From Yoonia litorea (GTDB taxonomy: Bacteria > Pseudomonadota > Alphaproteobacteria > Rhodobacterales > Rhodobacteraceae), in NCBI RefSeq assembly GCF_900114675.1, contig NZ_FOZM01000002.1, positions 248,001 through 312,000 of the forward strand: 64,000 bases of DNA. Reading direction: 5' to 3'. This document shows, one piece after another, positions 3,424-30,194 of the stretch. The notes beneath the pieces are model-generated. The model saw only the letters and a program-made list of their open reading frames with translations, searched no databases and was not told the DNA's origin. The position numbers and the translations under genes are program-made. The first letter of the stretch is position 1, and each line of letters begins with the position of its first letter.

Positions 3424-3435
3424 ATCCGTCTTTCA

Positions 3436-13606: not shown

Positions 13607-15046
13607 CTAGCTGTCACGACCGCGCGCATAAATGTCCTCATAGCGAATAATGTCGTCTTCACCGAGATAAGTTCCGGTCTGCACTTCGATCAAAGTCAGT
13701 GGTACTTTGCCGGGGTTCTCCAGGCGATGGATCGCTCCAAGGGGAATGTAGACGGATGCGTTTTCACCAATGAGCTGCACGTTTTCGTCAACGGTAACCT
13801 TGGCGGTGCCTTCCACGACGATCCAGTGCTCAGAGCGGTGGTGATGACTTTGTAGCGACAGGGCTGCGCCGGGATTGACTGTGATGCGCTTTACCTGAAA
13901 CCGTGGGCCAACAACGAGACTTTCGAACCAACCCCAAGGGCGGTAATCACGGGGAAGGGTTTCGGCCTGTGCCACGGATTTGCGTTTGAGGGTGGCGACA
14001 GCCTCTTTGACCTCTTGCGCGCGGTCTTTACGGGCGACCAGCACTGCGTCGGGCATTGCGACCGCGATGATATCTTGCAGGCCTATCCCGACAAGCTCTT
14101 GCGCATCGTCTGTTGCTTGCAACAGTGTTCCGGCGCAGTCGAGCGCGGTCGAAGGGCCGGACGTGACCGTGCCGCTGTGATCCGCTTCTGCCTCGCGCCA
14201 GACGGCCTGCCAGTCGCCAAGATCGGACCATGCGCCAGCGTAGGGGACGACGCTGAGGTTGCTGGCCCGTTCCATCACCGCGTAGTCGATCGAGATATCG
14301 GGCAGTGTTTCCCACGCCTCGGGCCCCAGCCGTATAAAGGCGAGGTCGCGCTCGGCAGCGGCGAAGGCGGCTTGCGTGGCCTCAAGCACCTCGGGCGCAT
14401 GTTGGGCGAATGCGTCGAGAATGGTGGTTGTGGTGAAGAGGAAGATCCCTGCATTCCACAGGTGCATGCCTCCTGCAAGCAAAGCCTCGGCCTTGGCAGG
14501 GTCCGGTTTTTCGACAAAGCTCTTGAGCGGCTGCGCAATTGAAGCGAAGTCGTCTGTCGCCTGCGATAGCTCGAGCCAACCATAGCCCGTCTCGGCGCGG
14601 TCAGGGCGAATGCCAAAGGTCACGAGTTGTCCATCTCGCGCAGCAGAGGTTGCGGCGTGCACCGCCGCGCGGAAGCGAGCGCCGTCAGGGATCACATGAT
14701 CAGATGGGGCGACCAGCATGAGAGAACCGGGCGCGCGCGCCTCAAGTGCGATTGCAGCTGCACAGATCGCTGCAGCAGTGTTCTTGGCCGCTGGTTCAAT
14801 CAGGATATCGGCGGGCGCCATGTCGAGTGCCGCAAGCTGCTCGATTACGATGAAACGGAAATCCGAGGCTGTCACTATCATGGGGGCCGCGAAACCAGCC
14901 CCTGACAAACGGCGGGCAGAGGCCTGATAGAGGCTCTCGTCGCCTGTCAGTTTGACGAATTGCTTGGGGTAGGACTTGCGCGAGAGTGGCCAGAGGCGGG
15001 TTCCAGAGCCACCACAGAGAAGAACCGGATGAATGTCTTGCGTCAT
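13607..15046 (-). CDS. manC: Mannose-1-phosphate guanylyltransferase / mannose-6-phosphate isomerase
   Basis: 479 residues, full length for the bifunctional ManC/AlgA type. The N-terminal nucleotidyltransferase domain carries the signature LLCGGSGTRLWPLSRKSYPK (residues 9-28) and FVEKPD near 170. The C-terminal cupin domain (about 365-475) has SLQSHHHRSEHW and AIHRLENPG, where the histidines hold the metal for mannose-6-phosphate isomerisation. It makes GDP-mannose from mannose-1-phosphate and GTP in the cytoplasm, feeding Gmd and Fcl encoded just upstream. GAAGGATTGG precedes the ATG. It is the last gene of the leftward polysaccharide operon. Confidence 0.93.
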   Translation of the reverse strand: MTQDIHPVLLCGGSGTRLWPLSRKSYPKQFVKLTGDESLYQASARRLSGAGFAAPMIVTASDFRFIVIEQLAALDMAPADILIEPAAKNTAAAICAAAIALEARAPGSLMLVAPSDHVIPDGARFRAAVHAATSAARDGQLVTFGIRPDRAETGYGWLELSQATDDFASIAQPLKSFVEKPDPAKAEALLAGGMHLWNAGIFLFTTTTILDAFAQHAPEVLEATQAAFAAAERDLAFIRLGPEAWETLPDISIDYAVMERASNLSVVPYAGAWSDLGDWQAVWREAEADHSGTVTSGPSTALDCAGTLLQATDDAQELVGIGLQDIIAVAMPDAVLVARKDRAQEVKEAVATLKRKSVAQAETLPRDYRPWGWFESLVVGPRFQVKRITVNPGAALSLQSHHHRSEHWIVVEGTAKVTVDENVQLIGENASVYIPLGAIHRLENPGKVPLTLIEVQTGTYLGEDDIIRYEDIYARGRDS

Positions 15047-15058
15047 AGGTCCAATCCT

Positions 15059-16015
15059 TCAGCAGCGCAGGTCAGTTTGGTTATCCAGAAACCACGTATA
15101 GGTGGAGCGTAGGCCCTCATCGAGACTGATCGTTGCCTCCCATCCCATCGCCTTCAGGCGTGAGACATCCATCAGCTTGCGCGGTGTGCCGTCGGGTTTG
15201 TCGGGGTCAGTCGTGATGCGCCCTTCAAATCCCGTGATTTCTGCAACCTGTTGAGCAAGTTCAAGGATAGAGATATCCGTGCCGGTGCCCACGTTAATGT
15301 GGCTTAGCATGGGGTCGGTGTTGGCGTCGTAGACTTCCTTGGGCAGGTCCATCACAAAGAGCGAGGCGGCGGCCATATCGTCCACATGCAGGAACTCTCG
15401 GCGTGGCGTGCCGGTGCCCCAGATCACGACTTCGCCAAGCTCGTCTCGTGCGGCTTCATGGAAGCGGCGGATCAGGGCAGGCAGGACGTGGCTGTTTTCA
15501 GGGTGGAAATTGTCGCCGGGTCCGTAGAGGTTCGTCGGCATCACGCTGCGATAGTCGACCCCGTGCTGCCGGTTGTAGCTTTCGCAAAGCTTGATGCCAG
15601 TGATTTTGGCGATGGCGTAGGGTTCGTTGGTGGGTTCCAGCACACCGGTCAACAGCGCATCCTCGCGCATGGGCTGCGGGACAGCTCGCGGATAGATGCA
15701 AGATGATCCAAGTTGCAGGAGGCGTGTGACGCCGGCTGCAAAGGCCTGATGGATGACATTCGCCTCGATCATCAGGTTGTCGTAGATGAAATCAGCCGGA
15801 TAGTTGTTGTTAGCAAGGATCCCGCCCACGCGGGCCGCGGCGAGGATCACCACATCAGGGCGTTCTGCTTGCATGAAGGTGCGGACGGCAGCCTGATCAG
15901 TGAGGTCCAGGTCTGCATGGCTGCGCGCGATGATCTCGATGCCGTCACGTGCCTGCAACTGGCGCAGGATTGCGCCGCCGACCATACCCCGATGACCTGC
16001 CACATAGACCTTCAT
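15059..16015 (-). CDS. fcl: GDP-L-fucose synthase
   Basis: 318 residues from the ATG at 16015. The upstream extension of the frame overlaps gmd and is discarded. The SDR nucleotide-binding motif [12 protein letters not shown] is at the N-terminus, and the catalytic Ser (GSSCIYP) and YxxxK (YAIAKITG) are in the usual places. It converts GDP-4-keto-6-deoxymannose to GDP-fucose by epimerisation and NADPH reduction. It follows gmd by 5 bp and precedes manC, so three consecutive steps of GDP-fucose supply are encoded together. [19 protein letters not shown] matches the WcaG/Fcl family. Confidence 0.95.
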
Positions 16016-16020
16016 CGCGC

Positions 16021-17145
16021 TCACCCGTTCTCGACCGAGACCGGAATATCGTGCCCATGTGCCTTCAGCAGTGCATGGCGTTCGGCCACGCGCAGGTCTT
16101 CGGCGACCATCTCGGCGCACATCTCGCGGGCAGTAATCTCCGGTTCCCATCCAAGACGCTCCTTGGCCTTGCTCGGATCACCCAGCAGGGTCTCCACCTC
16201 GGCAGGGCGAAAATAGCGGGGGTCGATGCGGACTATGACGTCGCCAACCTTGAGCGCAGGCGCCTTGTCGCCGGTGATTGCAGCGACGGTGGCGATCTCG
16301 TCCGCGCCGCTCCCCGTGAACTCCAGTGTGATCCCCAGTTCAGCGGCAGACCATGTGATGAAATCTCGCACCGAGAACTGCTGTCCCGTGGCGATCACGA
16401 AATCCTCAGCAGCATCCTGTTGCAGCATCATCCACTGCATGCGTACATAATCCTTGGCATGGCCCCAGTCGCGCAGCGCATCGATGTTGCCCATGTAAAG
16501 GCAATCTTCGAGCCCTTGCGCGATATTGGCCAGACCACGGGTGATCTTGCGGGTCACAAAGGTCTCGCCACGGCGCGGGCTCTCGTGATTAAAGAGGATG
16601 CCGTTGCAGGCATACATCCCGTAGGCCTCGCGATAGTTGACCGTGATCCAGTAGGAATAGAGCTTGGCCACCGCATAGGGCGAGCGCGGATAGAAGGGCG
16701 TGGTCTCGCGCTGCGGGGTCTCCTGCACCAATCCGTAAAGTTCCGAGGTCGAGGCCTGATAAAATCGGGTTGTCTTCTCCAGCCCCAGAAAGCGGATCGC
16801 CTCGAGCAGGCGCAGGGTGCCCATGGCATCAACGTCGGCGGTATACTCGGGACTCTCAAAGCTGACCGCGACATGGCTCTGCGCACCGAGGTTGTAGACT
16901 TCGTCGGGCTGGGTTTCTTGAATGATCCGGGTGAGGTTGGAGGTGTCGGTCAGATCGCCGTAATGGAGATGCAGTTGCGGATTGGCGGCGTGTGGATCTT
17001 GATAAATATGATCAATCCGTTGGGTGTTAAAAGATGATGCGCGGCGTTTGACACCGTGCACCACGTATCCCTTGTTCAACAAAAACTCGGCGAGGTAAGA
17101 GCCGTCCTGGCCAGTGATGCCGGTGATGAGAGCTGTTTTTGTCAT
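16021..17145 (-). CDS. gmd: GDP-mannose 4,6-dehydratase
   Basis: 374 residues. The motif [16 protein letters not shown] near the N-terminus and [18 protein letters not shown] are characteristic of Gmd. The active-site STSELYG and the YxxxK of [12 protein letters not shown] are present, as is [20 protein letters not shown]. It dehydrates GDP-mannose to GDP-4-keto-6-deoxymannose, the substrate of Fcl. Its start codon overlaps the stop of the upstream glycosyltransferase by four bases. Base composition here is that of the core genome, unlike the AT-richer genes just upstream, so the boundary of the acquired segment lies close to its 5' end. Confidence 0.96.
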
Positions 17146-17915
17146 TCGGTTGGGGGCTTTCGCAATTTGAACTGTTCAATTTTTCTCAGGTTCTTGAGTG
17201 CCAACGCGGGGATACCCCCGACACCGTTTCGCCTCAAGGCGAAGTAATCTTCCCTGCTCTTTTTAATGATACGACCAAGAGACCTATTGCTCTCACCGCC
17301 AGTCCGCATCCTAACCATCACAATCGGAATGTAGGCTGGCTTCAGGTTGTGAATCCATAACCACCTCAGCATCGCATCATAATCTGCTGCGATCTGAAAC
17401 GATGTGTCATAGCTGCCAAATTTCTCCAGCAGAGATCGACGAATATAGAAGGTTGGGTGAGGCGGCATCCAGCCAGAGCGGATGTTGTTTCGATCATAGA
17501 AGCCCGCCTTCCAGTGTCGAACGACGCGCGTCGGATCATTCTCTGAAACGTACTGGAGATCGCCATACACACAATCAACCATTGGGTCAGAAAATGCTGC
17601 TGCAACGTGAGAAAGCACATCCCTTCGAGCGAAAGTATCATCCGAATGTAACAGCCCGACGATATCACCTGTTGCGCGCTTCAGCCCTCTATTGATGGCA
17701 TCGTAAATTCCATTGTCGGGCTCGCTCACTAGGTGGGTCCGTAAACCAGATACCTCTGAAATGATATCAAGCGTACCATCCGAAGATCCGCCATCCTGCA
17801 CCAGGTGTTCAACGTGACTATAGTCCTGCGACCCGACTGAATTCAGTGTGTCTTCGATAGTTAAGGCACGATTGAAAACCGCAGTAACAACTGAGATTGT
17901 GAGTGGATTATTCAT
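17142..17915 (-). CDS. Family 2 glycosyltransferase
   Basis: 257 residues with a GT-A fold. Seen: [20 protein letters not shown] at the N-terminus, the [10 protein letters not shown] nucleotide-sugar loop near residue 40, and the metal-binding acidic run LLHSDDTF near 90. The segment [12 protein letters not shown] near 190 is typical of WcaA/WcaE-like cytoplasmic enzymes. It would transfer one sugar onto the lipid-linked repeat unit at the inner membrane. It is coupled by a 4-bp overlap to gmd, so the donor could be GDP-fucose or GDP-mannose, but that is inference from position only. Confidence 0.88.
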
Positions 17916-17994
17916 CGAAGAATTTTTCTTTCAGCGGTGCTCTGGTAGAACACTCCATATTGAAGTGCAGCGCATTTGCCCATGGACACGAGCT

Positions 17995-18795
17995 TTAAAA
18001 CTTCGTGGCTCCGAAGGGGTAGCGGAGAACCACTTTCGCCAACTGCCTTTTGATTTGTGATGCCGAAAAAACTACAGACAGAATAAGAACGTCCTTCAAA
18101 CCAAGATACGATTTGTATTTCCAAAGTAGCGCAAACCGTCTGGGGTGATGGCTGGTCAAGCGTTCGCGCCCGTCAGATGGACGCATGAAGACCTTAGCTT
18201 TTGTAGAAAAGCGAATCTTTGCACCGGAAAGAATGACCCTAATGCCCAAATCTCTGTCTTCTGAGACGACTAGGTCTTTGTCAAAACCCCCAACAGTCCA
18301 GAATAGATCTTTACAAATGACAAAGTTTTGGCCGCTCGCACCGACATTCCTGCGTAACAGCCCCTTAACCGTAAAGTTTTCTGATGATGGCTGGGCAAGA
18401 CATATCGGTGTTTCTGGTCCCATCTGAAAGATACTCGAATAGACACATTTGGCATTCTCTTGAGCAAGTCGCTCCAGACAATCCGAAATGAAATTACTGG
18501 ACCAAACGTCGTCATCGTCCAAGAAGGCGATAAACCGCCCTTTTGAAAAGGCGGCACCAAAATTTCGGGCGATGGATGCACCTACACGAGGAGCAATGCG
18601 GAAATACAAAACCTCTTTAGGTAAACCTTCGACGTCTGCAGCGACCGTTCCATTGTCGACAATAATCACTTCAGTCGGTGGGCAAGACTGACCTAGCACA
18701 GAGTGAACCGCTTCGAGAAGCATCGAGTGAGGCCTATCGCAAGTTGGAATGATGACTGAAACCGGCGATTTTTTGGCTGAGGTAAGTTCAGTCAT
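17995..18795 (-). CDS. Family 2 glycosyltransferase
   Basis: 266 residues with VSVIIPTCDRPHSMLLEAVH at the N-terminus, VDNGTVAAD, and an acidic DxD-type run AFLDDDDVW near residue 95. A catalytic-base candidate is in SEDRDLGIRV (about 190). The pattern is that of GT2 enzymes of O-antigen or exopolysaccharide loci. The C-terminus is basic with a hydrophobic patch (VLILSVVFSASQIKRQLAK), which may anchor it to the inner membrane. It lies 79 bp upstream of the next GT2 gene and 19 bp downstream of the pyruvyl transferase gene. Confidence 0.87.
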   Translation of the reverse strand: MTELTSAKKSPVSVIIPTCDRPHSMLLEAVHSVLGQSCPPTEVIIVDNGTVAADVEGLPKEVLYFRIAPRVGASIARNFGAAFSKGRFIAFLDDDDVWSSNFISDCLERLAQENAKCVYSSIFQMGPETPICLAQPSSENFTVKGLLRRNVGASGQNFVICKDLFWTVGGFDKDLVVSEDRDLGIRVILSGAKIRFSTKAKVFMRPSDGRERLTSHHPRRFALLWKYKSYLGLKDVLILSVVFSASQIKRQLAKVVLRYPFGATKF

Positions 18796-18814
18796 TCAGA
18801 AGATCCCAAACGAT

Positions 18815-19948
18815 TCAGAGGTTTTCATTAAGAAACGCTAGCGATTTGCTTCGCAATTCTTCTAGGTCTGCAGCGGAGATCGGTCGTCGATCAAGACCCT
18901 CGATGTCAAAATTGGCATCTGAAACTTTCACAAACCGCTCGGACATATTGAGTTCGGCAAGGAGGCTTTCAAAGCGCGAAGATCCGCGACCAGGGTTGTC
19001 TAGAACCAAAAATGGTTTCTGAAAAATAGTGGCAAAGATTGCGCCGTGATATGAGTCTGTCACAACAAAGCGTGCTTGTCGAAAGCCATTGAGCCATTGT
19101 TCGACCGGAGGGAGGGGATCGCTTTCACTGCCACCAGTTTGGGAAGCCGTGCTTTCGGCCTTTCCCCTGAAGTTAATGGCCTTCAATTGAAAATAATCTG
19201 CAACCTGCTGCACCATGCCCAACTTGTGAGAATTCTTGTTGAGTAAATAGGCGTATATGTATTCAGAAGATTGCAAACTTTCTGTCTTTGCGCACAAATC
19301 CTCGTAGTATTCTCTGGTAAGCAGCAGTGTCGGATCAAGGACCTTGCTTGCCGCGACATCAAGATGTTCACTGCATAATTCAATCCCTGACGCTTCCCGC
19401 ACACTAATTGCGTCAATCCGTTTTGCCAGACCTTGGCATCGCTTTGTTTGCTCAGGCGTAAATTCCCATTTGTCGACTCCAAAGGACGCAGCATATGCAA
19501 TCCTTTTGGTGGTTTTCGCGTCACTCTTCTCCAAAAAGTCTAGAAAGAAGTTATATATGTTCGGAGAATAAGCAGGTCGCCAAACCTGGTCGCTTCCGAC
19601 AACCACTGCTTCAAAGCCACCGGCAAAGAAATAGCTCATGAGGCTTTTGTCGTCATAAATGGCTGGAGAGATATTAAGCTTCGTGTCGATAAATTCTCGG
19701 GTGTTGGTTGAGACGATCTCGATATGCTTTTCCAGAAAAACTGGTTGCTTTGACCCACGTAGGAATTTTCTCCCAAGGCGAAGTCCAAGACGCAATAGTG
19801 ACATCAGAGCACCGCGACGCGCGGCGCGACGGTCTATTGTTTCGACGATGTGTCCCTTCTCTCTCAGCACAGTTTGCAATGCCCAAGCTTGCATTATTCC
19901 ACCGTAGTTATGGCCTAGCGGCTGAGTGAGTATTGCTATTTTCATCAT
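18815..19948 (-). CDS. Polysaccharide pyruvyl transferase family protein
   Basis: 377 residues. The N-terminus MKIAILTQPLGHNYGGIMQAW is the hallmark of the PF04230 (WcaK/CsaB) group, with VVGSDQVWR near 115 and the C-terminal FVVTDSYHGAIFATIFQKPF motif around 290. These enzymes attach a ketal pyruvate from phosphoenolpyruvate to a sugar hydroxyl, giving an acidic polysaccharide. MMKI offers two adjacent starts; the second Met (19945) is equally possible. Position between glycosyltransferase genes fits modification of the repeat unit before export. Confidence 0.88.
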   Translation of the reverse strand: MMKIAILTQPLGHNYGGIMQAWALQTVLREKGHIVETIDRRAARRGALMSLLRLGLRLGRKFLRGSKQPVFLEKHIEIVSTNTREFIDTKLNISPAIYDDKSLMSYFFAGGFEAVVVGSDQVWRPAYSPNIYNFFLDFLEKSDAKTTKRIAYAASFGVDKWEFTPEQTKRCQGLAKRIDAISVREASGIELCSEHLDVAASKVLDPTLLLTREYYEDLCAKTESLQSSEYIYAYLLNKNSHKLGMVQQVADYFQLKAINFRGKAESTASQTGGSESDPLPPVEQWLNGFRQARFVVTDSYHGAIFATIFQKPFLVLDNPGRGSSRFESLLAELNMSERFVKVSDANFDIEGLDRRPISAADLEELRSKSLAFLNENL

Positions 19949-20045
19949 CTTGCCCTGTCACTTTGTAGAACACCGGTTTCCTATGTCAGCAGCTGGAGTC
20001 AATTCAAAGTCGACAAGCCTACTATATGCTTCGTGCTTTTCCCCT

Positions 20046-21194
20046 TTAGCTCTGCAACATCTCAAGGTTTTCTTCATGTGACCTGCTAGCGCCAACGATC
20101 TCCTTGTAGAGCTCAAGGTACTTCATCCCGATCACCTGCGGAGAAAGCTCCCTTACACAAAATGAAACTGCCGCCCGTGAAGCTTCGCAGTAGTTCGACA
20201 TGATGCGCACAGTCGCATCTGCAATTTCTGTTTCTGCTTTACCATCAAAATCAATGAGCGCTCCGAATTCATCTTCAACGTAGCTATCCATCCCCGTCTC
20301 TGACTGTGCAATGACCGGCACCCCATTCGCCAATGCTTCGGTCAGAGTATTCGGTGAATTGTCCAGCTTGGAGGGGCACAACAGAATATCAAAGGAGCGA
20401 TAGACTTGACGCAGATCTTTCTGAGCGAAGGGTGGGTGAGTGTGGACGATGATCCCAGACGGGAACCTTGGTATGTCATTGCTTCCTTTACCATAAATGT
20501 GAAGTTCAACCTCGGAAAAGCGCGCTCCGATAGCTGCCAAGGCTGAAGGAAGTGATGCAAGATTCTTTCGTGGATCATTTACAGGATTAGCGATGAAACC
20601 GAAGCGGACTTTGTCTTTCTCAAAGCGTCGGGTTTCTTCTTCTGCTGCGATATCGACAGCATTTCTAATTACCTTTATGCGGTCGACACGACTTCGTTCA
20701 CATAACCACTGCGATGGCGCTACCAGTAAGTCAGGCTTTGCTTTGCCATCGTAAAGTGTTTTGCGCATTAGATAGTTCGCAAAATTGCTGCTGGCCTCCA
20801 TGTTGAGACCATAGTGCTTTGCTCCATGATACGGCCAAAAATCACTCATACGATGGACGACTGGGCAGCTCACAGCATTTAGATCTTCAAAGCCTATTGT
20901 ATTGCCAGAAACATCGCAAAGCTGAATGAGGTCTGGCTGGTATTGCTTCTCAAGCTGAAGAAGACTGAAGACCGGTGGGCCGATGCGGAGACAATGAACA
21001 TCTGTCCCAAAAAAAGATCGCTCACAAATACGTTCTATGAGGCGTAGCAATCTAATTGGGCGGTAGGCCTGCGTTCGGTACGCATCTAAGGCAACTACTT
21101 CTATGCCAGCTGAACTAAGTGCGCGCATTAGATTCCGAGCACCTGTGGCGGCGCCACCTTTTTCCAACGACTTTGCAACTAGCAGCACTCTCAT
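20046..21194 (-). CDS. Family 4 glycosyltransferase
   Basis: 382 residues from the ATG at 21194, which overlaps the upstream polymerase-like gene's stop in ATGA fashion. The longer in-frame opening (to 21332) is inside that gene and is rejected. N-terminal MRVLLVAKSLEKGGAATGA and the C-terminal CPSKLDNSPNTLTEALANGV with the E-x7-E retaining GT4 signature show a GT-B glycosyltransferase. HIYGKGSNDIPRF fits the central nucleotide-binding domain. It resembles WcaL-type enzymes of exopolysaccharide loci. Donor and acceptor are unknown. Confidence 0.88.
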   Translation of the reverse strand: MRVLLVAKSLEKGGAATGARNLMRALSSAGIEVVALDAYRTQAYRPIRLLRLIERICERSFFGTDVHCLRIGPPVFSLLQLEKQYQPDLIQLCDVSGNTIGFEDLNAVSCPVVHRMSDFWPYHGAKHYGLNMEASSNFANYLMRKTLYDGKAKPDLLVAPSQWLCERSRVDRIKVIRNAVDIAAEEETRRFEKDKVRFGFIANPVNDPRKNLASLPSALAAIGARFSEVELHIYGKGSNDIPRFPSGIIVHTHPPFAQKDLRQVYRSFDILLCPSKLDNSPNTLTEALANGVPVIAQSETGMDSYVEDEFGALIDFDGKAETEIADATVRIMSNYCEASRAAVSFCVRELSPQVIGMKYLELYKEIVGASRSHEENLEMLQS

Positions 21195-22423
21195 GCCAGT
21201 TGTCTCAACCTGATACGTCTCAAGATAGCTACGATGAAATACACTGCAGCGAAAACGTAAATGAGACGCGTTCCGGTCCTCAAATTGTACTGCAATTGAA
21301 TAAGAAACGGGAATGCAAAGAATGAAAAACACAAAATAGCTTCAAATATATCGCGCCTCGTCGATAAATATTTTCGTGCAAGAAGAAAGCCGAACGACGA
21401 AAGAAAAACTGCCCCGATGTAAAGAAATGGACCCATGTAGGAGATCGCATATCCAAAACCTGGGTAAGGGATGTTCGCCCGAAATCGGTGAGTGGAGTTA
21501 AATTCAGCAGTGAGATCATACAAAACAGATGGTACCGGAATGATCGAGTAGTAGAACCATTTTGCTTCCGCTGCGACCGTTTCCAAGAGCTCGCCATTGA
21601 GGACAAATGAGAGATTGAAGATATAGTTAGTCCCATACAACACCATATGGGAAACGGCGGAAAAGTCTGAAAAAAAGGCGGCTTGGAAGACCGGGAGAAT
21701 GCCGCCGCTATTGACGATACGAAGATAGAGGATTGCTCCGAGCAGCCAAAATGCCAGCAAGCCTATTGCGATTGGTACCCAAGAGCGGTGCCGACGCAAG
21801 ACCAGCATCTCGACCGCAGCAAAAACAATAAGCATGACAATTGCTGACCGGCTGCCAACCGCGAGAAATGATGTTGTAACTACGAACAAGCACAAAAACT
21901 TAAATCCGTTCCGCCTGATAAAAGGCGTCAAAACGGCAGATAGAAATAGCAAGAGATCCGCAAACCGCATCCAGTGGTTCGAGGCACTAATGTAAATGAA
22001 TGCTGGCCGCTCCCAAAGATCGCTATTCGGCACCGCCAGAAAAACAAAGAACGCCGGAGAAATACAAAAAAGGAATCCGGTAATTCCGATATCGAGCTTC
22101 CGGAAATAATTGACGTCGACCGCAACATAGCTGCGATTATCAAGCAGATCGACAAAACGCATAGCCGCCAGAACCGCAAAGAAGTGAAAGCATATCATCG
22201 TCAGGACAAAGCCGTAGACATCGAGCATATTTCTCGAAAAATAGTCGAATGGCATATCTTCCCCAAAAGAGAAGACAAGAATACTCAACACAAAGTAGCC
22301 GCAGTAAATAAGTGGAACGCACAATACTGCCAATTCCAGCAAACGGCGACCACTCCACGCAAGCAATGCAAACATCCCAAGCAGAAGGTAACTGGAGACT
22401 GCTACAAATAGACTTGTCGTCAT
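21191..22423 (-). CDS. Wzy-like O-antigen/exopolysaccharide polymerase
   Basis: About 410 residues and nearly all hydrophobic, with ten or more predicted membrane helices and one longer periplasmic loop (about residues 270-340). No signature residues are conserved enough to prove function. The assignment rests on topology, position among glycosyltransferase genes and the presence of a Wzx flippase in the same operon. The start is uncertain: MTTSLFVAVSS at 22423 (ATG) is preferred to an upstream TTG at 22450. Wzy polymerises lipid-linked repeat units on the periplasmic face. Composition is strongly AT-rich (22 G+C in 60 at 21301-21360). Confidence 0.7.
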   Translation of the reverse strand: MTTSLFVAVSSYLLLGMFALLAWSGRRLLELAVLCVPLIYCGYFVLSILVFSFGEDMPFDYFSRNMLDVYGFVLTMICFHFFAVLAAMRFVDLLDNRSYVAVDVNYFRKLDIGITGFLFCISPAFFVFLAVPNSDLWERPAFIYISASNHWMRFADLLLFLSAVLTPFIRRNGFKFLCLFVVTTSFLAVGSRSAIVMLIVFAAVEMLVLRRHRSWVPIAIGLLAFWLLGAILYLRIVNSGGILPVFQAAFFSDFSAVSHMVLYGTNYIFNLSFVLNGELLETVAAEAKWFYYSIIPVPSVLYDLTAEFNSTHRFRANIPYPGFGYAISYMGPFLYIGAVFLSSFGFLLARKYLSTRRDIFEAILCFSFFAFPFLIQLQYNLRTGTRLIYVFAAVYFIVAILRRIRLRQLA

Positions 22424-22624
22424 TTGACAGGACAATCTTGCAGTAGCCAAAGATCCAGGTCTGGCAGGTCGACATCCATATAAGACATTAGGCCTCCCGA
22501 CCTCGTTCTATTTCTCTGCAATTCAATTACACCAAACTGAAGCACAATTTGTAGCTTCCGAAGAATGTTCCTGCGTCAATGGTGAAATACTTGCAGAAAG
22601 CCGCCAGCATCAAAGCAACCGCCG

Positions 22625-24361
22625 TTACTCGTGCCTGATGATTTTTCGGGCAAGTTTAATGCTCTTGGCACCCAAGGCGGCTTTGGCGGCCGTTTTGAAT
22701 TGGCCATGAACGTCCACTGCCAAATTCTTTACCGTCTGAAGCGCCTTGCTTTCGTCTTCTGCATCAACGAAAGCTTCTACAATCTGCGGGCTTTCCGATG
22801 CCTTTGATGAAAAGAAAGCCTTGAGCGCTTCTGCTGCCTCTTCCTTTGAAGACGCAGATGAGTATCTGAAACCGAGGGCTTCTGCATACGCCCTTACCAA
22901 GTTTCGTGATTGATTTCCGAAGTGCCCACTCGCGGCGACATATTTTTCAGCATCGTGCTTATACTTTGAACCTGCGTGGCCATATTGTGTGAACTCGGTT
23001 CCCTGACCATTGTTTACGAGAAGAATTCGGATGTTGGGTCCAATGTGGCGGCTACCCAAGGCATTCATGTCATAGAAGAAGGCCAAGTCCCCCGTGACAA
23101 GATAGAATAGCCTCTCGCGATCAGCCATTGATGCTCCAATGAGAGACGACAGACAACCGTCAATCCCGAAGCCGCCGACGTTAGAAGCCGCTGATACTCC
23201 GGTCGGGACATCGAAGAAATTCCACGCCCGCAAACTGTTGAGGATGCTAAAGTGAACCACAGAACCCTGGGGGATTTGTGAGGCAAACTTCGACGCGAGC
23301 CATAAATTGGAGAAAGGCAGATCTGGGACTTTAGAGCGCACTCTATTCAACACTTCTTCGCAGCTGGCAAAGTACTCCATCGGACTGCTTTCCTTGTGCG
23401 AGTAACCTTCAAAGAAAGCCTTCTCCGGCATCTCGAAAATATGCCGAAGCTTGCGATAGGTATCTCGGAGCTCTCCATCAGGACTGACGCGCCAGACCTC
23501 TGAGCCCGTTAAGGCAGGGGTATAATAATCGCCCGAGACCTCACCGATGTGGATACTAATGTCAGGTTTTATGCTCGTTTTTCGCAGCCTTTCCTGAGCG
23601 CCGACCAAGGCCATAGGCAAACGATACTTTCCGGTGTATGAGCTGGTGTGATCGCAAAAAACTGCGGCATTGTTTGTTTCGCAGAACCTTTCGACTGCTG
23701 CTGTTTCGTCGGCTGTCCATTTCTTGTGCGACCCAACAAATATTGCAATGCGTCCGGCAATCGTTGGAAGTGTGTCGCCAGGAGTCCATCGATCCATTTT
23801 TCTGAACACGGGAAGCGTTTTTGTTTCATAGTCTTGGCTATAAACGGTCGGCAAATTGATATGTGCCGGACCACCGCCATGGCGGCGCAGTTCAAGGATT
23901 GCTTTGTTAACTTTGATCTCACATTCCCAAATATCATCAGAGTCCTTAACGACAGGCAGATGCACGCTGACCTTCGCCACGTCATTCGGGATTGAAGATC
24001 TATCGACTACTTGTGCCACATTTTGGCCAACTCGCGCATGGATTTGCGTCGATGTAATCGCGAGAACTGGCAATTTCCGGTAAAATGCCTCCGTCAGGCC
24101 AGGCATATAGTTACGAGACGCCGTTGCTCCTGTGCAGCTTAGTGCGACCGGTTCTCCGAGCTGTTCGGCCATTCCACATGCCATGTATGCTGCGGAGCGC
24201 TCATCAACGGCTGAGAAGATCTTGAAGAAAGGATCGGTCTGTATGCTGCCAACGAAAGTCAGGTTTGTCGCGCCCGGGGAGGCGATCACGTACCGAACAC
24301 CGTGTGCCTTCAGCAGAGATATCACAATCTGCGCCTGCTTTTCCGCCGTATATGAGCTCAT
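22625..24361 (-). CDS. MenD-like thiamine-diphosphate-dependent enzyme
   Basis: 578 residues with the three-domain layout of acetolactate synthase/MenD enzymes. The cofactor-activating Glu is in VDERSAAY (E54), SNVGGFGIDG is at about 393-402, and the ThDP-binding motif runs from GDL (424) to NN (450). The wording GDLAFFYDMNAL is much closer to MenD (GDLSFLHDLN) than to acetolactate synthases. MenD adds a decarboxylated 2-oxoglutarate to isochorismate, but no menaquinone genes are here and the gene sits inside a polysaccharide operon. The neighbouring epimerase is coupled by a 4-bp overlap. A carbon-carbon bond-forming or decarboxylating step in making an unusual sugar is inferred, with the YerE branched-sugar enzyme as a loose precedent. 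174-200 bp of non-coding DNA follow. Confidence 0.75.
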   Translation of the reverse strand: MSSYTAEKQAQIVISLLKAHGVRYVIASPGATNLTFVGSIQTDPFFKIFSAVDERSAAYMACGMAEQLGEPVALSCTGATASRNYMPGLTEAFYRKLPVLAITSTQIHARVGQNVAQVVDRSSIPNDVAKVSVHLPVVKDSDDIWECEIKVNKAILELRRHGGGPAHINLPTVYSQDYETKTLPVFRKMDRWTPGDTLPTIAGRIAIFVGSHKKWTADETAAVERFCETNNAAVFCDHTSSYTGKYRLPMALVGAQERLRKTSIKPDISIHIGEVSGDYYTPALTGSEVWRVSPDGELRDTYRKLRHIFEMPEKAFFEGYSHKESSPMEYFASCEEVLNRVRSKVPDLPFSNLWLASKFASQIPQGSVVHFSILNSLRAWNFFDVPTGVSAASNVGGFGIDGCLSSLIGASMADRERLFYLVTGDLAFFYDMNALGSRHIGPNIRILLVNNGQGTEFTQYGHAGSKYKHDAEKYVAASGHFGNQSRNLVRAYAEALGFRYSSASSKEEAAEALKAFFSSKASESPQIVEAFVDAEDESKALQTVKNLAVDVHGQFKTAAKAALGAKSIKLARKIIRHE

Positions 24362-25443
24362 ACTATTTTCATTTGCCTCATAATTTGAACAGGAACGTGG
24401 CGAAAAAAGAGATATCGAGATAGTGATGAAAGCGTCTCAAGATCGGTTAGGTCCACGTATTCTCCACTTGCCTTATCCCTCAATGCTTCTGCTCTCCAGT
24501 TTATTCTACGAAATCTAGTTTCGCCTGCCAGTTGCTTTTCGAAGGAAGCTCTGAGGTCAACAAGCGGGTCTGCAATTGTGTTCAGATCGAAGAATGGAGC
24601 GATCTTGTTCGTCGAGAAACGCCTATCGTAAGCGCGGTCAAACTTTACCTGTTCAGGCTTTGTGTGAAGGCAAAACTCATCAAGGTTTTGTAAGACAACA
24701 TCACCTGTCCAACGCAGCGTCTCGCGAAGAACCGCTGAGTACGTTTGAAGTATGTCCGCCCATTGTATTCCGATGCCGCTTGTCAGGTTGAAATCATTGC
24801 AAATCGCTTCGCTTCGTCCGACCAACGACGCTATCATTCCTGCCACGGTATCGCTGTTGGTCAAAGTCGTCGTCCGATTCATAAGATCTTTACAAAATAC
24901 AACTTTTCGCCCTCTGACGGCGCGGTATAGCCAGTCTTCTTTTTCCAGCGGGCCCAACTGAAATCGCCCCTTTCCAAAAGTGATGTAGGGCCTGACGATC
25001 GTCCAATTTGTACTCGACGATTGGCGAATGTAGTCCTCCTGTCGCGCCTTTGCCAAGCCGTACTCATCGGTGGTCAGATAGTGTGGATCTGTACAAACGT
25101 CGAGTAATCGAGGAGAGCATTCATCTAGATCAGTCTGGCTGGCGGCAAATACCCGACATGAGCTAAGAAATACATACTGATCTGTCGCCCTGTAGAGCTG
25201 TTCAAATCTCTGCAGGAATTTTGGTGTCGTGTACGCCATAAAATCAATGATTGCGTCCCAGCGTGTGGACAAGAGGCTGCTTAAGAACTGGTCGTCCTGC
25301 GCGTCTCCCTTCAAGAATTTTACATTTTGGCGATCATTCAACGTTTTCCGGCTTGTCACCCAAATTTCGCTTCCGGCCCTCTCAAGCGAAAGGATCAGCG
25401 ACGTGCCAATGACACCGGTACCGCCGAGGACGAGCACTTTCAT
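24358..25443 (-). CDS. NAD-dependent epimerase/dehydratase (extended SDR)
   Basis: 361 residues. The nucleotide-binding motif GGTGVIGTSL is at residues 8-17, an active-site Ser region FLSSCRVFA lies near 95, and the YxxxK pair is present as YGLAKARQE near 130. The pattern is that of extended SDR enzymes which oxidise, epimerise or dehydrate nucleotide sugars. The C-terminal 80 residues are diverged from standard UDP-glucose epimerases, with a long basic tail (YLFFRHVPVQIMRQMK). Four-base overlaps link it on both sides, to the flippase gene and to the MenD-like gene, so the three are made from one message. Confidence 0.82.
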   Translation of the reverse strand: MKVLVLGGTGVIGTSLILSLERAGSEIWVTSRKTLNDRQNVKFLKGDAQDDQFLSSLLSTRWDAIIDFMAYTTPKFLQRFEQLYRATDQYVFLSSCRVFAASQTDLDECSPRLLDVCTDPHYLTTDEYGLAKARQEDYIRQSSSTNWTIVRPYITFGKGRFQLGPLEKEDWLYRAVRGRKVVFCKDLMNRTTTLTNSDTVAGMIASLVGRSEAICNDFNLTSGIGIQWADILQTYSAVLRETLRWTGDVVLQNLDEFCLHTKPEQVKFDRAYDRRFSTNKIAPFFDLNTIADPLVDLRASFEKQLAGETRFRRINWRAEALRDKASGEYVDLTDLETLSSLSRYLFFRHVPVQIMRQMKIV

Positions 25444-26975
25444 TTGGCGGCTCTTTTGGCCAGGATTGACCTAAGCAAAATCTTCAACTGCGCCCTCTCC
25501 CCGCTCGTAAGGCCAAAACAATAGATGAGCGTTGGCGCAGCGCCCAAGATCGCCAAGAGGCCTACAACTGATCCGAGCGATATCGTCGTGAACCCCGCTT
25601 CGAAAACGAGGGCAGACGCCGATATGACAATGATGCTTGAGGAAGTAACTACCTTGAAAATAGGCATCAGCGCGCGGTCGAAAAAGGCCCAAACGCTTAG
25701 TCCTACCATGCGTGACGCGATAGTGAGCCTTACAAAAAGCATCAAGATGTTCATCAAAATTGCGACGACATAGACAGAGTATGCAGGGAATCCTGTGCTA
25801 ACAAGCAACCATGACAGCAAGAATATAAGGACCTGTAGGCTACCCAGGACCAATTCGTAGGTCCTAACTTTACCGGCTGCCCTTACAGCCGTCATCAGCG
25901 GAAAGCTCGCGGAAACAATCAAGCTTTCGATAAGTGCAAGCCTGGTGAAGAGCAATGCTTCCGGTGGATAGTCGCCAATCCAAATCGAGAGCACAGGGCG
26001 CAAAAGCGCAATCAACGGCAATGTGACTATCCACGCCAAGAAAAACGCCGCTTTGCTGCCCATATAAACAAGGGCACGCGTTTGTTCATAGGCTCCTGAA
26101 GCGAAAGACTTCGTGATCGGTGGATTGAGTGCCGCGATAAAATTTTGGGAAAATGTCTGTACTTGGGCCTGTATCGTAAACGCTAGCGCACGCGCAGCGA
26201 CAGTCGTCGGATTGAAAGCTTGGTTGATAAGCAGCGTAATAGCTTGTGTTCGACAAACGGTTGTGAATTGACCAAACAACGTCCACGTCAAGAACCCGAG
26301 CATTTCCCGCATGGCTTGGGTGTCACTGCTTAGCCCGCGTAGTTTGCATTCGTCATACTTGAAAACGCAATATATCCACTGCGCGAGCATGACAGAAAGC
26401 GTCGCCAGGAAAAAAAAGAACCCGTAAATCACAAGCCCGTCCTGGTTGAAGGCTGAGATAGACAAAGCTGCTCCAAGTCGGAAAAGGGTCGTCAGAAATG
26501 CAAAAAACGCAAATGCAAACATGTCCTCATGCGCTAGCATAACTGACGCGTGAAACATTGCGATCGCACCACAAACAGTGCTTAAAACGAAGAACTGGAA
26601 TAGAGCTTCAACCTCATCCTGTCGACTGAACTCGACAACGAGACCATCTGAAACAAACCAGTTTCCGCCCGTCTGCAAAATAACAAAAATGAACGCGGCG
26701 CTCGCCAGTGTCAGAAAAAAGCACGTATCATGGAACCGACGAAGATTTGCGAAGGAATTCTCGCCAATAGCAAATGCCAGATAGCGCTGCGTCAGCATTC
26801 CGATGGAGTTCGTGACAAACGACAAAAGAAGCGCGACGCTGAGTACGACATTCATCAAACCGAAGTCGACAATGCCGAGTTCTCTTACAAGAACGCGAAT
26901 AGTATAGAGTCCGATGATTGCCAGAACAACTTGTCGGACGAAGAGGATGGTCGTGTTCTTCGCTACTCTATTCAA
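25440..26975 (-). CDS. Wzx-like polysaccharide flippase
   Basis: 511 residues with about twelve to fourteen membrane helices; the N-terminus NRVAKNTTILFVRQVVLAII and the GLMNVVLSV stretch match the MATE/MOP flippase superfamily used for O-antigen and exopolysaccharide units. It would move the undecaprenyl-linked repeat unit to the periplasmic side of the inner membrane. The start codon is TTG (26973-26975) with only a weak ribosome-binding site; no better start was found. It is the first gene of the leftward cluster, so the promoter should lie in the 329-bp gap to its right. Confidence 0.85.
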   Translation of the reverse strand: MNRVAKNTTILFVRQVVLAIIGLYTIRVLVRELGIVDFGLMNVVLSVALLLSFVTNSIGMLTQRYLAFAIGENSFANLRRFHDTCFFLTLASAAFIFVILQTGGNWFVSDGLVVEFSRQDEVEALFQFFVLSTVCGAIAMFHASVMLAHEDMFAFAFFAFLTTLFRLGAALSISAFNQDGLVIYGFFFFLATLSVMLAQWIYCVFKYDECKLRGLSSDTQAMREMLGFLTWTLFGQFTTVCRTQAITLLINQAFNPTTVAARALAFTIQAQVQTFSQNFIAALNPPITKSFASGAYEQTRALVYMGSKAAFFLAWIVTLPLIALLRPVLSIWIGDYPPEALLFTRLALIESLIVSASFPLMTAVRAAGKVRTYELVLGSLQVLIFLLSWLLVSTGFPAYSVYVVAILMNILMLFVRLTIASRMVGLSVWAFFDRALMPIFKVVTSSSIIVISASALVFEAGFTTISLGSVVGLLAILGAAPTLIYCFGLTSGERAQLKILLRSILAKRAAK

Positions 26976-27304
26976 GCCATCAACCGAGATTTTGACTACA
27001 CCTCTAACGTGGTGGGACCCTAATTGATATCCCCAAATCTTGTGTCTCGGATATTATTGGATTGTTTTAGACAGACCGGCGGCACCAAGAAGGGTCGCGT
27101 TGACCGACTTGTTTTTGTTGCTATTCGTATCTGAAAATAAATAATTGAAGACACGACGATTGGCATTGCAGCAAATGAGCGTCTCCATAGTATGACAAGG
27201 GCAACGAACGTCTTTGCCAGAGACATACCTTAGTGATGACATAGTTAGAACAAGAATTTTCTATGGAAACTAGTTGAAAGATTCTTAATATTTTAGGAGA
27301 GAAC
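26976..27304. other. 329-bp divergent intergenic region
   Basis: AT-rich gap between the flippase gene (leftward) and the repeat-protein gene (rightward). It must carry both promoters, but no convincing pair of -35 and -10 elements could be fixed by eye. A good ribosome-binding site AGGAGA (27294-27299) serves the rightward gene. No gene or large inverted repeat is seen. Confidence 0.6.
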
Positions 27305-29218
27305 ATGGCACGCGACACGATTGAAAGCATCGGTCTTTTTGGGCTTCAGGTTGACACTACCACGGGCGAATACGCCATCGTGGAATACAACGGGTCAGGA
27401 GAACTCGTCACAGACGGGGTCGATCTGAGTATCACTCGGGCCGGTGTCGGCGCGATCACAGAGACCACATATACAGACAATGTCTCGTACAACTTCCAGG
27501 CCACACAGGTGGCGGCTGACGACACGCCTGACGCAACCGGATACAAGGTTCTCTTCCAAGACTCATTCAGCGGTCGCATGATCGTCTGGACCGTGGATGA
27601 CACAGGTGCCTATGTATCGCAGCAGGAGATCACCAATGATCCGGCCGCCATCCGCGATGCAGAGGTTCTCTTCGATGTCGATGGCCTTGACGATGTCGAC
27701 GGAATTGGCGCTGAAGTTGGGCCAACAGTCGTCGTCGTTGATGACAACGCCACCGGTGTTGATCTGATCACAACAGATGGCGCATATGGTATCGTTGATG
27801 CTGCCAACTCCATTGACCTCGATCTCACGAGGGAAGGTGTCGGCACGATCACAGAGACCACATATACCGACAATGTCTCGTACAACTTCCAGGCCACGCA
27901 GGTGGCGGCTGATGACACGCCTGACGCAACCGGATACAAGGTTCTCTTCCAGGACTCATTCAGCGGTCGCATGATCGTCTGGACCGTCGATGACACAGGG
28001 GCCTATGTATCACAGCAAGAGATCACCAATGATCCAGCTGCCATCCGCGATGCAGAGGTACTCTTCAATGTCGATGGCCTTGACGATGTACCCGGCATCG
28101 GTGCTGAAGTAACTCCGCCAGATCCAACAGTCGTCGTCGTTGATGACAACGCCACCGGTGTTGATCTGATCACAACAGATGGCGCATATGGTATCGTTGA
28201 TGCTGCCAACTCCATTGACCTCGATCTCACTCGGGAAGGTGTCGGCACGATCACAGACGCCACATATACCGACAATGTCTCGTACAACTTCCAGGCCACA
28301 CAGGTGGCGGCTGACGACACGCCTGACGCAACCGGATACAAGGTTCTCTTCCAGGACTCATTCACCGGTCGCATGATCGTCTGGACCGTCGATGACACAG
28401 GGGCCTATGTATCTCAGCAAGAGATCACCAATGATCCAGCTGCCATCCGCGATGCAGAGGTACTCTTCAATGTCGATGGACTTGACGATGTACCTGGCAT
28501 CGGTGCCGAAGTTGGGCCAACAGTCGTCGTCGTTGATGACAACGCCACCGGTGTTGATCTGATCACAACAGATGGCGCATATGGTATCGTTGATGCTGCC
28601 AACTCCATTGACCTCGATCTCACTCGGGAAGGTGTCGGCACGATCACAGAGACCACATATACCGACAATGTCTCGTACAACTTCCAGGCCACACAGGTGG
28701 CGGCTGACGACACGCCTGACGCAACCGGATACAAGGTTCTCTTCCAGGACTCATTCACCGGTCGCATGATCGTCTGGACTGTGGATGAAACAGGTGCCTA
28801 TGTATCTCAGCAAGAGATCACCAATGATCCAGCTGCCATCCGCGATGCAGAGGTGCTATTTGACAGCGATGTGGATAGCGACAACTTCCAGTTCCTGGAA
28901 AACAATGGCGCCGTTGGTTTGAAAATCGATACTCAGACTGATCAATACGTCGTTGAAACTGAGAGCAACGAAATCGCCCTTACGGATACAGGAGACGCAC
29001 TCATCTTCTCTGAAAGCGGCCCGATTGAAGCAGAAATAGATGATTTCCAGGTACTGCAACTACTCTTTGAAGTTGAAGCTGGATACGAGACTGTTTCGGT
29101 CGACTTGCTTTCAGGCGCAGTTGATCAATTGTCAGCTACCGCAATCAGTGAGCTCGATGCAGAGAGCTTGTTTGATGTTGATCTGAACGGCGACGGAACT
29201 ATCGGGGTCATCGCCTAG
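27305..29218 (+). CDS. Acidic protein of four near-identical ~131-residue repeats
   Basis: 637 residues, very acidic, with almost no Lys or Arg outside a few fixed places, no signal peptide and no membrane segment. Units cover about residues 7-139, 140-273, 274-404 and 405-520; a diverged fifth follows and ends in FDVDLNGDGTIG, a calcium-loop-like motif. Each unit contains YNFQATQVAADDTPDATGY, a KVLFQDS(F)..MIVWTVD block and AYVSQQEITNDPAAIRDAE. The alternation of hydrophobic strands with W and Y and the closing (N)VDGLDD resemble the tryptophan-rich repeat found at the C-termini of secreted bacterial proteins (PF07483 type). Export by a type I system and a surface or matrix role are inferred from composition and from the polysaccharide neighbours. 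No direct evidence of function exists. Confidence 0.8.
   Translation: MARDTIESIGLFGLQVDTTTGEYAIVEYNGSGELVTDGVDLSITRAGVGAITETTYTDNVSYNFQATQVAADDTPDATGYKVLFQDSFSGRMIVWTVDDTGAYVSQQEITNDPAAIRDAEVLFDVDGLDDVDGIGAEVGPTVVVVDDNATGVDLITTDGAYGIVDAANSIDLDLTREGVGTITETTYTDNVSYNFQATQVAADDTPDATGYKVLFQDSFSGRMIVWTVDDTGAYVSQQEITNDPAAIRDAEVLFNVDGLDDVPGIGAEVTPPDPTVVVVDDNATGVDLITTDGAYGIVDAANSIDLDLTREGVGTITDATYTDNVSYNFQATQVAADDTPDATGYKVLFQDSFTGRMIVWTVDDTGAYVSQQEITNDPAAIRDAEVLFNVDGLDDVPGIGAEVGPTVVVVDDNATGVDLITTDGAYGIVDAANSIDLDLTREGVGTITETTYTDNVSYNFQATQVAADDTPDATGYKVLFQDSFTGRMIVWTVDETGAYVSQQEITNDPAAIRDAEVLFDSDVDSDNFQFLENNGAVGLKIDTQTDQYVVETESNEIALTDTGDALIFSESGPIEAEIDDFQVLQLLFEVEAGYETVSVDLLSGAVDQLSATAISELDAESLFDVDLNGDGTIGVIA
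27425..28857 (+). repeat. Four in-frame DNA repeats of about 393-402 bp
   Basis: Anchoring on the word CAACAGTCGTCGTCG gives starts at 27723, 28125 and 28518, so unit lengths are 402 and 393 bp; the first unit has a different leading part. By eye, units 2 and 3 differ at roughly a dozen of about 393 positions. This level of identity points to recent duplication or gene conversion. Confidence 0.85.
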
Positions 29219-29247
29219 TAAGTACTCCAAAGCCTCATGAAATCTAT

Positions 29248-29276
29248 AAAGCGCCCGCATTGCGGGCGCTTTCCTT
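29248..29276 (+). terminator. Intrinsic terminator after the repeat-protein gene
   Basis: AAAGCGCCCG and CGGGCGCTTT form a strong hairpin around a short loop, followed by CCTTTT. It starts about 30 bp after the stop codon at 29218. The AAA/TTT flanks make it potentially bidirectional. Confidence 0.8.
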
Positions 29277-29573
29277 TTGCGGGTGATTTATCAGCTTTCA
29301 GAGACTTTATAGACTTCAAAAATTTTTAGATGCTTTTGTTCCGCCAGCGTTCGCATAACGGTTGCCAGAAACTAAGTGATGATTCTGCTATCTAATGGTG
29401 GTTTGACATCCCTTCAGATATGAAGCGGTCAGTCAAACATCTGTTGGAGCGAAGCAGGATATGAAAGACCGTGATTTCTGCACGCAGTCCGACAACAACA
29501 ATTCGTGAAAATGATCTCAGCGACTTGGTAAGTCGACAGAACTTTCTAACTTTCCTTCAGAAGGGTAGTGTAG
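29277..29573. other. 297-bp gap upstream of msrA
   Basis: AT-rich intergenic DNA with no credible gene. A TTGACA-like hexamer is at 29403-29408 but no good -10 at standard spacing. The right end holds AGAAGGGTAG, a plausible ribosome-binding site for msrA. Confidence 0.5.
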
Positions 29574-30194
29574 ATGTTCAAACCGCTTGCCGTTTTGCTG
29601 TCGTTATTGCCGCTGCCTGTCTTGGCGGATGAAACGAGGACGGCCTATTTTGCCGGCGGTTGTTTCTGGTGTGTTGAAAGTGACTTCGAGAAGGTACGTG
29701 GTGTCGCTGAGGTGGTGTCTGGCTACACAGGCGGGACCACGGTTGATCCGACCTATGAAACCCTCAAGGGGTCGGGCCATTATGAGGCGGTGGAAATCAC
29801 CTATGATGCCGATGAGGTGAGCTACGAACAGTTGCTTTATGCGTTCTTCCGGTCAGTCGATCCCACAGATGCCGGGGGGCAGTTTTGTGACCGCGGGGAT
29901 GTTTACCGCACGGCGATCTTTGTCACTTCACCTGAAGAGCGCGCTGCGGCAGAAGCTGCAAAAGCCGCGGCCGGGCGGGCACTTGGCCAACAGATCGTGA
30001 CGCCGGTCCTCGATGCTGGAACATTTTACGAGGCCGAGGCCTATCATCAGGACTACTACAAAGGCGAAAGCCGAGTGCTGACGCGCCGTGGGATCAAGAC
30101 ACAGGCCGAGGCCTATGCGTTCTACCGCGAGGCCTGCGGCCGAGATGACCGTGTGCTTGCGCTTTGGGGTGATGCTGCGCCCTTTGCCAAATAG
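29574..30194 (+). CDS. msrA: Exported peptide methionine sulfoxide reductase A
   Basis: 206 residues. The catalytic motif GGCFWCVE is at about residue 26, with SGYTGG, the GHYEAVEI segment and DYYKGE as expected for MsrA, which reduces the S-epimer of methionine sulfoxide in oxidised proteins. The first 18 residues ([18 protein letters not shown]) form a typical Sec signal peptide ending in LA, so this copy should act in the periplasm rather than the cytoplasm. It converges on the broken DUF305 gene with only 2 bp between stops. Confidence 0.93.

Follow-up and report, generated by a model that had tools for sequence, protein, structure and literature searches.

RapA2 and RapD of Rhizobium leguminosarum are described as calcium lectins that are exported by a type I secretion system (T1SS) and bind the bacterium's own exopolysaccharide (PMC5061743, PMC9298526). 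Substrates of such systems are in turn described as carrying a noncleavable C-terminal signal (PMC8277102). For the Pfam family W_rich_C (PF07483), we found no functional study in the open literature, where the texts covered mention the domain only in domain lists and subscription journals lie outside the coverage; a wider open-literature search on W_rich_C added only a general RTX review.

Here, we analyze a protein, referred to as REP, that is encoded in a 64,000-nucleotide stretch of the Yoonia litorea genome (the window; contig NZ_FOZM01000002.1, positions 248,001 to 312,000). REP is a variant of the known W_rich_C family.

A tandem array of W_rich_C units

The REP gene and its units have the following coordinates in the window.

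27295..27300, + strand: ribosome-binding site AGGAGA of REP, read from the sequence
27305..29218, + strand: REP coding sequence (stand-alone W_rich_C array protein, 637 aa), an open reading frame with an ATG start and a PF07483 match
27305..27709, + strand: unit 1, 135 aa, with ~43 N-terminal residues unlike units 2-4
27710..28102, + strand: unit 2, 131 aa
28103..28504, + strand: unit 3, 134 aa
28505..28885, + strand: unit 4, ~127 aa, with an end chosen by us
28886..29215, + strand: unit 5, diverged, with a start chosen by us, a canonical loop (DVDLNGDGTIG) and the C-terminal tail GVIA
29248..29272, + strand: hairpin 3' of REP, found by folding, with an 11-bp stem followed by CCTTTT; possible terminator

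The hairpin at 29248-29272 is not among the reports of a consensus terminator scan.

The earlier note on this DNA had described four nearly identical in-frame units and a degenerate fifth, and the repeat spacing, Tandem Repeats Finder and the unit alignment all confirm this. The DNA direct repeats occur in four copies at spacings of 393, 402, and 393 nt, and Tandem Repeats Finder gives the REP array a score of 2513 with 94% matches. Since the other two arrays in the window score 59 and 52, the REP array is not a product of chance. Relative to unit 2, the identity is 97% for unit 3, 94% for unit 4 (lowered by its last ~12 residues), and 76-80% for unit 1 (lowered by its first ~43 residues), and units 1-4, each of which contains one tryptophan, share a 66-residue core (TYTDNVSYNF...RDAE) with differences of 0-2 residues. 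Only unit 5, which ends at its C-terminus in DVDLNGDGTIGVIA, has a canonical DxNxDG loop; in place of that loop, units 1-3 carry VDGLDDxxGIG and unit 4 carries DSDVDSDN.

The similarity of the first three units is maintained by purifying selection: pairwise comparisons of 97-codon stretches of units 1-3 give dS of 0.17-0.37 and dN of 0.024-0.039 (omega 0.10-0.14), with the unit 4 pairs (omega 0.38-0.54) set aside because they are raised by the diverged end of that unit. The earlier description of a protein with few basic residues and without a signal peptide or membrane helix was likewise borne out. REP contains 18 K+R, 123 D+E, and no Cys (pI 4.05), and its Kyte-Doolittle hydropathy, which reaches at most 1.02 in a 19-residue window and 1.36 in an 11-residue window near the N-terminus, indicates neither a membrane helix nor a Sec signal.

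The repeats had been suspected to be of the PF07483 type, and the Pfam HMM search returned W_rich_C for the whole protein with 75 bits (cut-off 26.2, E 5.5e-21) in four stretches. Taken singly in a scan of the own genome, the units score 19-23.4 bits and the fifth scores 12.4 bits (E 0.35). As each single unit falls below the cut-off, REP is a diverged member of the family, whose membership we accept on the summed unit scores, as in the Pfam whole-protein cut-off. The stretch of unit 5 alone (28880-29215) has no Pfam match at E 0.01, and unit 5 is counted as a fifth W_rich_C domain by a model that includes unit 5 itself. At E ≤1, the own genome contains five W_rich_C matches, all of them within REP. 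Neither RTX nonapeptides (GGxGxDxUx, PF00353; Pfam and motif search) nor a cadherin-type domain (Pfam) was found in REP.

Other assignments of REP were set aside. The pollen allergen family PF01620 scored 28.6 bits (cut-off 28.2), but no stretch passes alone; ten further Pfam families are under their cut-offs with no stretch passing alone, and nine NCBIfam matches are all under cut-off, among which only YPYG (19.6 bits, cut-off 30) has a passing stretch.

A canonical W_rich_C domain from Bradyrhizobium, modeled from a 102-sequence alignment (pLDDT 94.6, pTM 0.89), is predicted to fold into seven strands in two groups, followed by a helix and then the DLNGDG loop. Foldseek returned no match to this model at E ≤0.001, either in the PDB (best 0.17; TM ≤0.42 among the 50 matches listed, many of them propeller proteins) or among viral structures (best 0.031), so no solved relative of the modeled fold was found. 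The model of one REP unit, built from a mixed alignment, has a pLDDT of 57.7, with residues 1-60 under 50 and the second half at 67-83; its Foldseek matches (E ≥0.43, many of them propeller blades) were discarded. By sequence, REP has a single match in the PDB (E 0.43), which we take as chance.

Polysaccharide genes and the relatives of REP

REP had previously been placed beside a polysaccharide cluster. The association stands, and "beside" proved too weak a word: REP lies within a segment that is missing from relatives and that holds the following genes.

13047..29648 (outer limits), no strand assigned: segment with no homologous counterpart at this site in relatives, holding the polysaccharide genes and REP, from junction comparison
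13607..17145, - strand: manC, fcl, and gmd (GDP-fucose supply), from Pfam domains and plasmid records
17142..18795, - strand: two family 2 glycosyltransferases (GT2)
18815..19948, - strand: polysaccharide pyruvyl transferase (PF04230)
20046..21332, - strand: GT4-type glycosyltransferase
21191..22450, - strand: putative polymerase with a presumed Wzy role (weak NCBIfam TIGR04370 match, E 0.82; no Pfam match)
22625..24361, - strand: thiamine-diphosphate (TPP) enzyme that scores as MenD-like without reaching the MenD cut-off
24358..25443, - strand: NAD-dependent epimerase/dehydratase
25440..26975, - strand: putative Wzx-type flippase (PF01943, 19.2 bits, cut-off 28.2)

Homology to relatives stops at 13024-13046 and restarts at 29648-29652 inside msrA (7 junctions compared). 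These limits set the length of the insert at 16.2-16.6 kb, with a right edge that can be placed anywhere between REP and msrA. An msrA match is present in 24 of the 36 same-genus genomes searched, the own and 23 others; in all eight of these 23 that were fetched, the insert is absent beside msrA. In these eight relatives, msrA adjoins ilvE directly (7/8) or the next gene, g11362 (1/8), and tblastn at 1e-10 of the polysaccharide proteins and REP finds no match in 19 kb of the eight.

The flippase gene and REP are divergent, with 329 bp between them. The G+C content is 46-51% in the genes from glycosyltransferase to flippase, 53% in REP, 59-60% in manC-fcl-gmd, and 56-63% in the flanking genes. 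The polysaccharide gene block was apparently acquired, and REP could have entered at the site separately from it. Among plasmid records, none covers 80% of the insert, and its GDP-fucose genes have relatives at 72-78% (best rows) on plasmids, e.g., of Aestuarium, Sulfitobacter, and Phaeobacter. Judged by W_rich_C and the GDP-fucose genes together, the relatives are Phaeobacter, Ruegeria, Sulfitobacter, and similar. As a separate observation, the best NCBIfam match of the TPP enzyme at 22625-24361, inside the polysaccharide island, is MenD (158.5 bits, cut-off 244.2).

REP-type units occur in 2 of the 56 genomes of the genus, namely the own genome and a second one (G939). The G939 homologue has 984 aa in eight units, is 46.9% identical to REP over 524 columns (E 7e-106), and is surrounded by flippase, Wzy_C, FkbM, epimerase, GT2, and GT4 genes. 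As these surroundings are unlike the ilvE/msrA site of the window, the homologue looks like it lies at a different place. The link to polysaccharide genes is thus strengthened twice, by the insert and by this homologue in another polysaccharide cluster. Across the REP and G939 units, 25 columns are invariant, including the W and most of GYKVLF; the last G939 unit is without a DGDG-type ending. Omega among five G939 units scatters from ~0.1 to 0.5, partly since the stretch of unit 2 starts elsewhere, and synonymous sites between REP and G939 units are saturated in 18 of 18 comparisons (dN 0.31). The units therefore arose or were homogenized within each lineage. Two transposase-like ORFs (IS3-like by eye; L209:12190-13325 and 15476-16507) adjoin the G939 homologue.

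Searching genome_contigs, viral_contigs, and phages with the single protein returned no close relative of REP, and tblastn in 60 genomes (own plus 59 relatives, a sample without G939) matched only the own genome. PF07483 is found at E 0.001 in 2/248 genomes of the family, 14/390 of the order, 4/385 of the class, and 7/398 of the phylum, in overlapping samples that each include the own genome. Scanning genome_contigs yielded 209 W_rich_C relatives; among the best 80 (78 loci), 68 of the 78 loci are titled Bradyrhizobium, and a further genus (g510) is presumably Bradyrhizobium-type, judging by its domain match to the named Bradyrhizobium loci. The scanned loci contain 109 W_rich_C ORFs, 86 of which are complete. 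Among these 86, an RTX motif occurs in 52 and an HExxHxxG motif in 44, and only REP and the G939 homologue are without another stretch of 100 aa, in a count that does not include the Phaeobacter arrays described below.

We counted polysaccharide markers in ~20 kb per locus, using leave-one-out markers at thresholds of 40 and 80 bits in samples that are not independent. At 40 bits, at least one marker is present at 5 of the 14 other same-order W_rich_C loci, compared with 3/34 RTX controls (p 0.037) and 0/20 random loci (p 0.007); at 80 bits, the corresponding counts are 4/14, 2/34 (p 0.052), and 0/20 (p 0.022). For the named Bradyrhizobium-type loci (54 of the 78 were used, those with at least 19 kb), markers are present at 22/54 at 40 bits, compared with 0/5 RTX controls and 0/20 random loci, the latter taken in three further Bradyrhizobium-type genomes (p 0.0002), and at 12/54 at 80 bits (0/20 random, p 0.016). 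Further Bradyrhizobium-type loci outside the named set give 1/9 at 40 bits and 0/9 at 80. The REP-type pair gives only 1/2 at 40 bits (p 0.21 versus RTX controls). The leave-one-out count is insensitive, and this low figure arises because it detects none of the polysaccharide genes that Pfam finds in the 20 kb counted for the window. Four loci of G398 and G502, markerless in an earlier count, were left out.

Altogether, the proximity of W_rich_C to polysaccharide genes is a tendency and no rule. The stricter statement that W_rich_C always lies in polysaccharide clusters is rejected as a rule: most loci are markerless in the leave-one-out count, and the arrays of Phaeobacter inhibens have no polysaccharide neighbors in the stretches listed. 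Separately, a W_rich_C protein of another genus (L210:8457-15176) stands directly before matches to rmlC, rmlB, rmlD, and rmlA (by phmmer or eye); the same four genes are near W_rich_C at L217, and two of the four at L215.

The P. inhibens arrays are as follows.

L077:7836-10256: array of strain M631, 806 aa, 7 units (Pfam PF07483, 207 bits)
L078:6552-9722: array of strain M623, 1056 aa, 9 units, 44% identical to M631 by tblastn; no W_rich_C match in Pfam
L325:9001-9711: array of strain P72, 236 aa, 2 units

All three are carried by conjugative plasmids of one replicon cluster and annotated as hypothetical protein (e.g., WP_260085019.1). Within M631 and M623, units differ by 0-2 nt from the first unit, and the last unit by 11 and 10 nt, respectively; such near-identity in DNA suggests that unit number changes rapidly. 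The DGDG-type ending is present in the last unit only of M623, like REP, and in all units of M631 and P72. The neighboring genes are for heme uptake, two-component systems, T4SS, or ABC transporters. The gene table, itself incomplete, lists 17-19 kb and shows no polysaccharide genes near the three arrays, and the three plasmid arrays without polysaccharide neighbors in view count against a universal polysaccharide link.

Exporter genes and the C-terminal tail

Type I export had been proposed for REP, and a search for type I secretion genes elsewhere in the own genome located two HlyD loci over the cut-off; the window contains no HlyD match. The two ABC transporters of the window (1591-5265) are not part of the insert, and relatives carry their counterparts. 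One of the two HlyD loci, a HlyD/ABC pair (L230:8969-19395), adjoins a YjbH exopolysaccharide gene and a SpaA/SdrD_B-type protein of 1256 aa and is a candidate REP exporter. The own genome also contains 40 RTX repeat matches; a 7024-aa frame (G000:C3:34407-48110) has many RTX repeats and, nearby, sub-cut-off HlyD-like matches (C3:27208-32773).

In a genome of the same family (G104), the gene of a W_rich_C+RTX protein directly precedes those of its own exporter (outer-membrane, ABC (C39-like), and HlyD), and this 19.5-kb stretch also contains EpsG, Wzx-type, and Wzc-type genes and intervening rml-like genes named by eye. At L029:3691-10219, a W_rich_C+RTX protein is encoded together with a type I exporter of its own, surrounded by polysaccharide genes, which makes this locus a good bench system for the W_rich_C domain.

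In proteases, type I export is driven by a short C-terminal stretch of acidic and hydrophobic character. We described such tails by a home-made, post hoc rule, namely that the last two residues are hydrophobic, the last 12 contain at least two D/E, and the last 8 contain no K/R. The rule describes REP. Among same-order W_rich_C proteins whose ends are intact, it describes 14/14 (10 of them from one genus) versus 6/215 other ORFs of those loci, and it describes all three Phaeobacter arrays; it also holds for 17/32 RTX proteins, 25/445 ORFs beside these, and 8/331 random-locus ORFs. Over all loci, the rate is 22/102 W_rich_C proteins versus 26/1099 others, from which it follows that the Bradyrhizobium-type W_rich_C proteins mostly do not fit. 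By this rule, the REP C-terminus resembles type I secretion tails and is similar to that of many RTX proteins.

Proposed function and comparison with known systems

The most economical reading, in our analysis, is that REP would be exported by a type I system and act on the polysaccharide that its own island makes, in the manner of RapA2 and RapD, whose domains are unrelated. Specifically, we propose, with a probability of about 0.5, that REP is a type I-exported, multivalent, polysaccharide-associated protein of the extracellular matrix or capsule. REP would consist of five W_rich_C beta-domains in a row, without any recognized enzyme, anchor, or signal peptide, and would leave the cell, by means of its C-terminal tail, through a T1SS encoded elsewhere in the genome. 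Its acidic domains would probably be stabilized by calcium at their helix-loop (DxNxDG-like) ends, and the repeats could bind the island's polysaccharide at several points at once, which would retain, cross-link, or order the polysaccharide at the cell surface. The starting points of this proposal are the domain identity, the tandem array, the selection on its units, the location in the insert, the same-genus homologue in a second polysaccharide cluster, and the secretion-type tail; from these, we infer the actual export, the calcium, the polysaccharide ligand, and the cross-linking. The G104 locus, the two HlyD loci of the own genome, and the excess of polysaccharide markers at W_rich_C loci over controls also speak for it. 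We count against it the P. inhibens arrays with no polysaccharide neighbors listed, the lack of markers at most W_rich_C loci, the poor fit of the tail rule over all loci, the absence of RTX nonapeptides from REP and of a HlyD match from the window, the possible separate entry of REP at the site, and the poor model of the REP unit. The loop counts against it as well, since four of the five REP units have a changed version and the last G939 unit has none.

Under the chief rival, which we regard as somewhat unlikely, REP would be secreted and belong to the surface or matrix, its length would be variable, mobile DNA would spread it, and its ligand would be other than the island's polysaccharide. 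The ligand may then be a surface, a host glycan, another cell, or a phage, and REP would be one more surface-variation gene carried along by an island or plasmid. In favor of this are the pure arrays of 2, 7, and 9 units on three conjugative P. inhibens plasmids with no polysaccharide neighbors listed, and the patchy occurrence in the genus (2/56 genomes). Yet both REP-type proteins, only 47% identical to each other, sit among polysaccharide genes, and G104 has W_rich_C, T1SS, and polysaccharide genes together.

Alternatively, REP could be a passive scaffold, calcium sponge, or spacer, a flexible acidic polymer that thickens the matrix through charge and calcium bridging and has no specific sugar site. 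We consider this improbable: its pI of 4.05, its 123 acidic versus 18 basic residues, and its near-identical units speak for such a role, but selection fixes one sequence in units 1-3, and the 25 invariant columns of REP and G939 exceed what charge by itself would need. That REP stays inside the cell, or is a by-product of expanding repeats that is not expressed, is very improbable, since the lack of a signal peptide by hydropathy and of a HlyD match in the window is set against an omega of 0.10-0.14, the ribosome-binding site, the hairpin, the secretion-type tail, and the frequent occurrence of W_rich_C on proteins with RTX (52/86) or HExxHxxG (44/86) motifs.

The proposed role as a type I-exported polysaccharide partner can be extended to a broader reading, rather unlikely as a whole, in which stand-alone W_rich_C arrays would be an unrecognized class of extracellular proteins in marine Rhodobacterales-type bacteria, mobile, length-variable, and type I-exported. 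Its members would combine a beta-domain without a solved relative with a terminal helix-loop-hydrophobic tail and, in some lineages, would serve as a dedicated multivalent lectin handed on with a polysaccharide cluster. As part of this reading, the export tail in several arrays may double as the DxNxDG loop of the last domain. As a protein composed solely of W_rich_C units, inside a polysaccharide insert, REP offers a clean system for the question of the W_rich_C ligand.

Among known proteins, the W_rich_C proteins of Bradyrhizobium and of the own order share the Pfam domain with REP, and the same-order members also share the acidic-hydrophobic tail. In contrast to REP, these W_rich_C proteins carry other long stretches and often RTX repeats or an M10-type metallopeptidase motif; REP differs from them further in the single W of each of its units 1-4 and in its changed loop. 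The Phaeobacter arrays resemble REP in consisting only of tandem W_rich_C units, in their pI of 4.05, and in the same kind of tail; unlike REP, they lie on conjugative plasmids and have units nearly identical in DNA, and they are ~25% identical to it. Periscope Proteins, as described in PMC8201768, have near-identical tandem domains like REP, and unit number varies from strain to strain in the Phaeobacter arrays; compared with that description, REP is without a recognized ligand-binding head domain and without a wall anchor. RapA2 and RapD, as far as the sources cited above describe them, are like REP in its proposed working, with small beta domains, type I export, calcium, and a polysaccharide partner. 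They have Ra/CHDL cadherin-like domains, for which REP has no Pfam match, and are functional analogues only. If the proposed partnership of REP with its island's polysaccharide is true, another domain family besides Ra/CHDL would be found in type I-exported proteins that bind their own polysaccharide.
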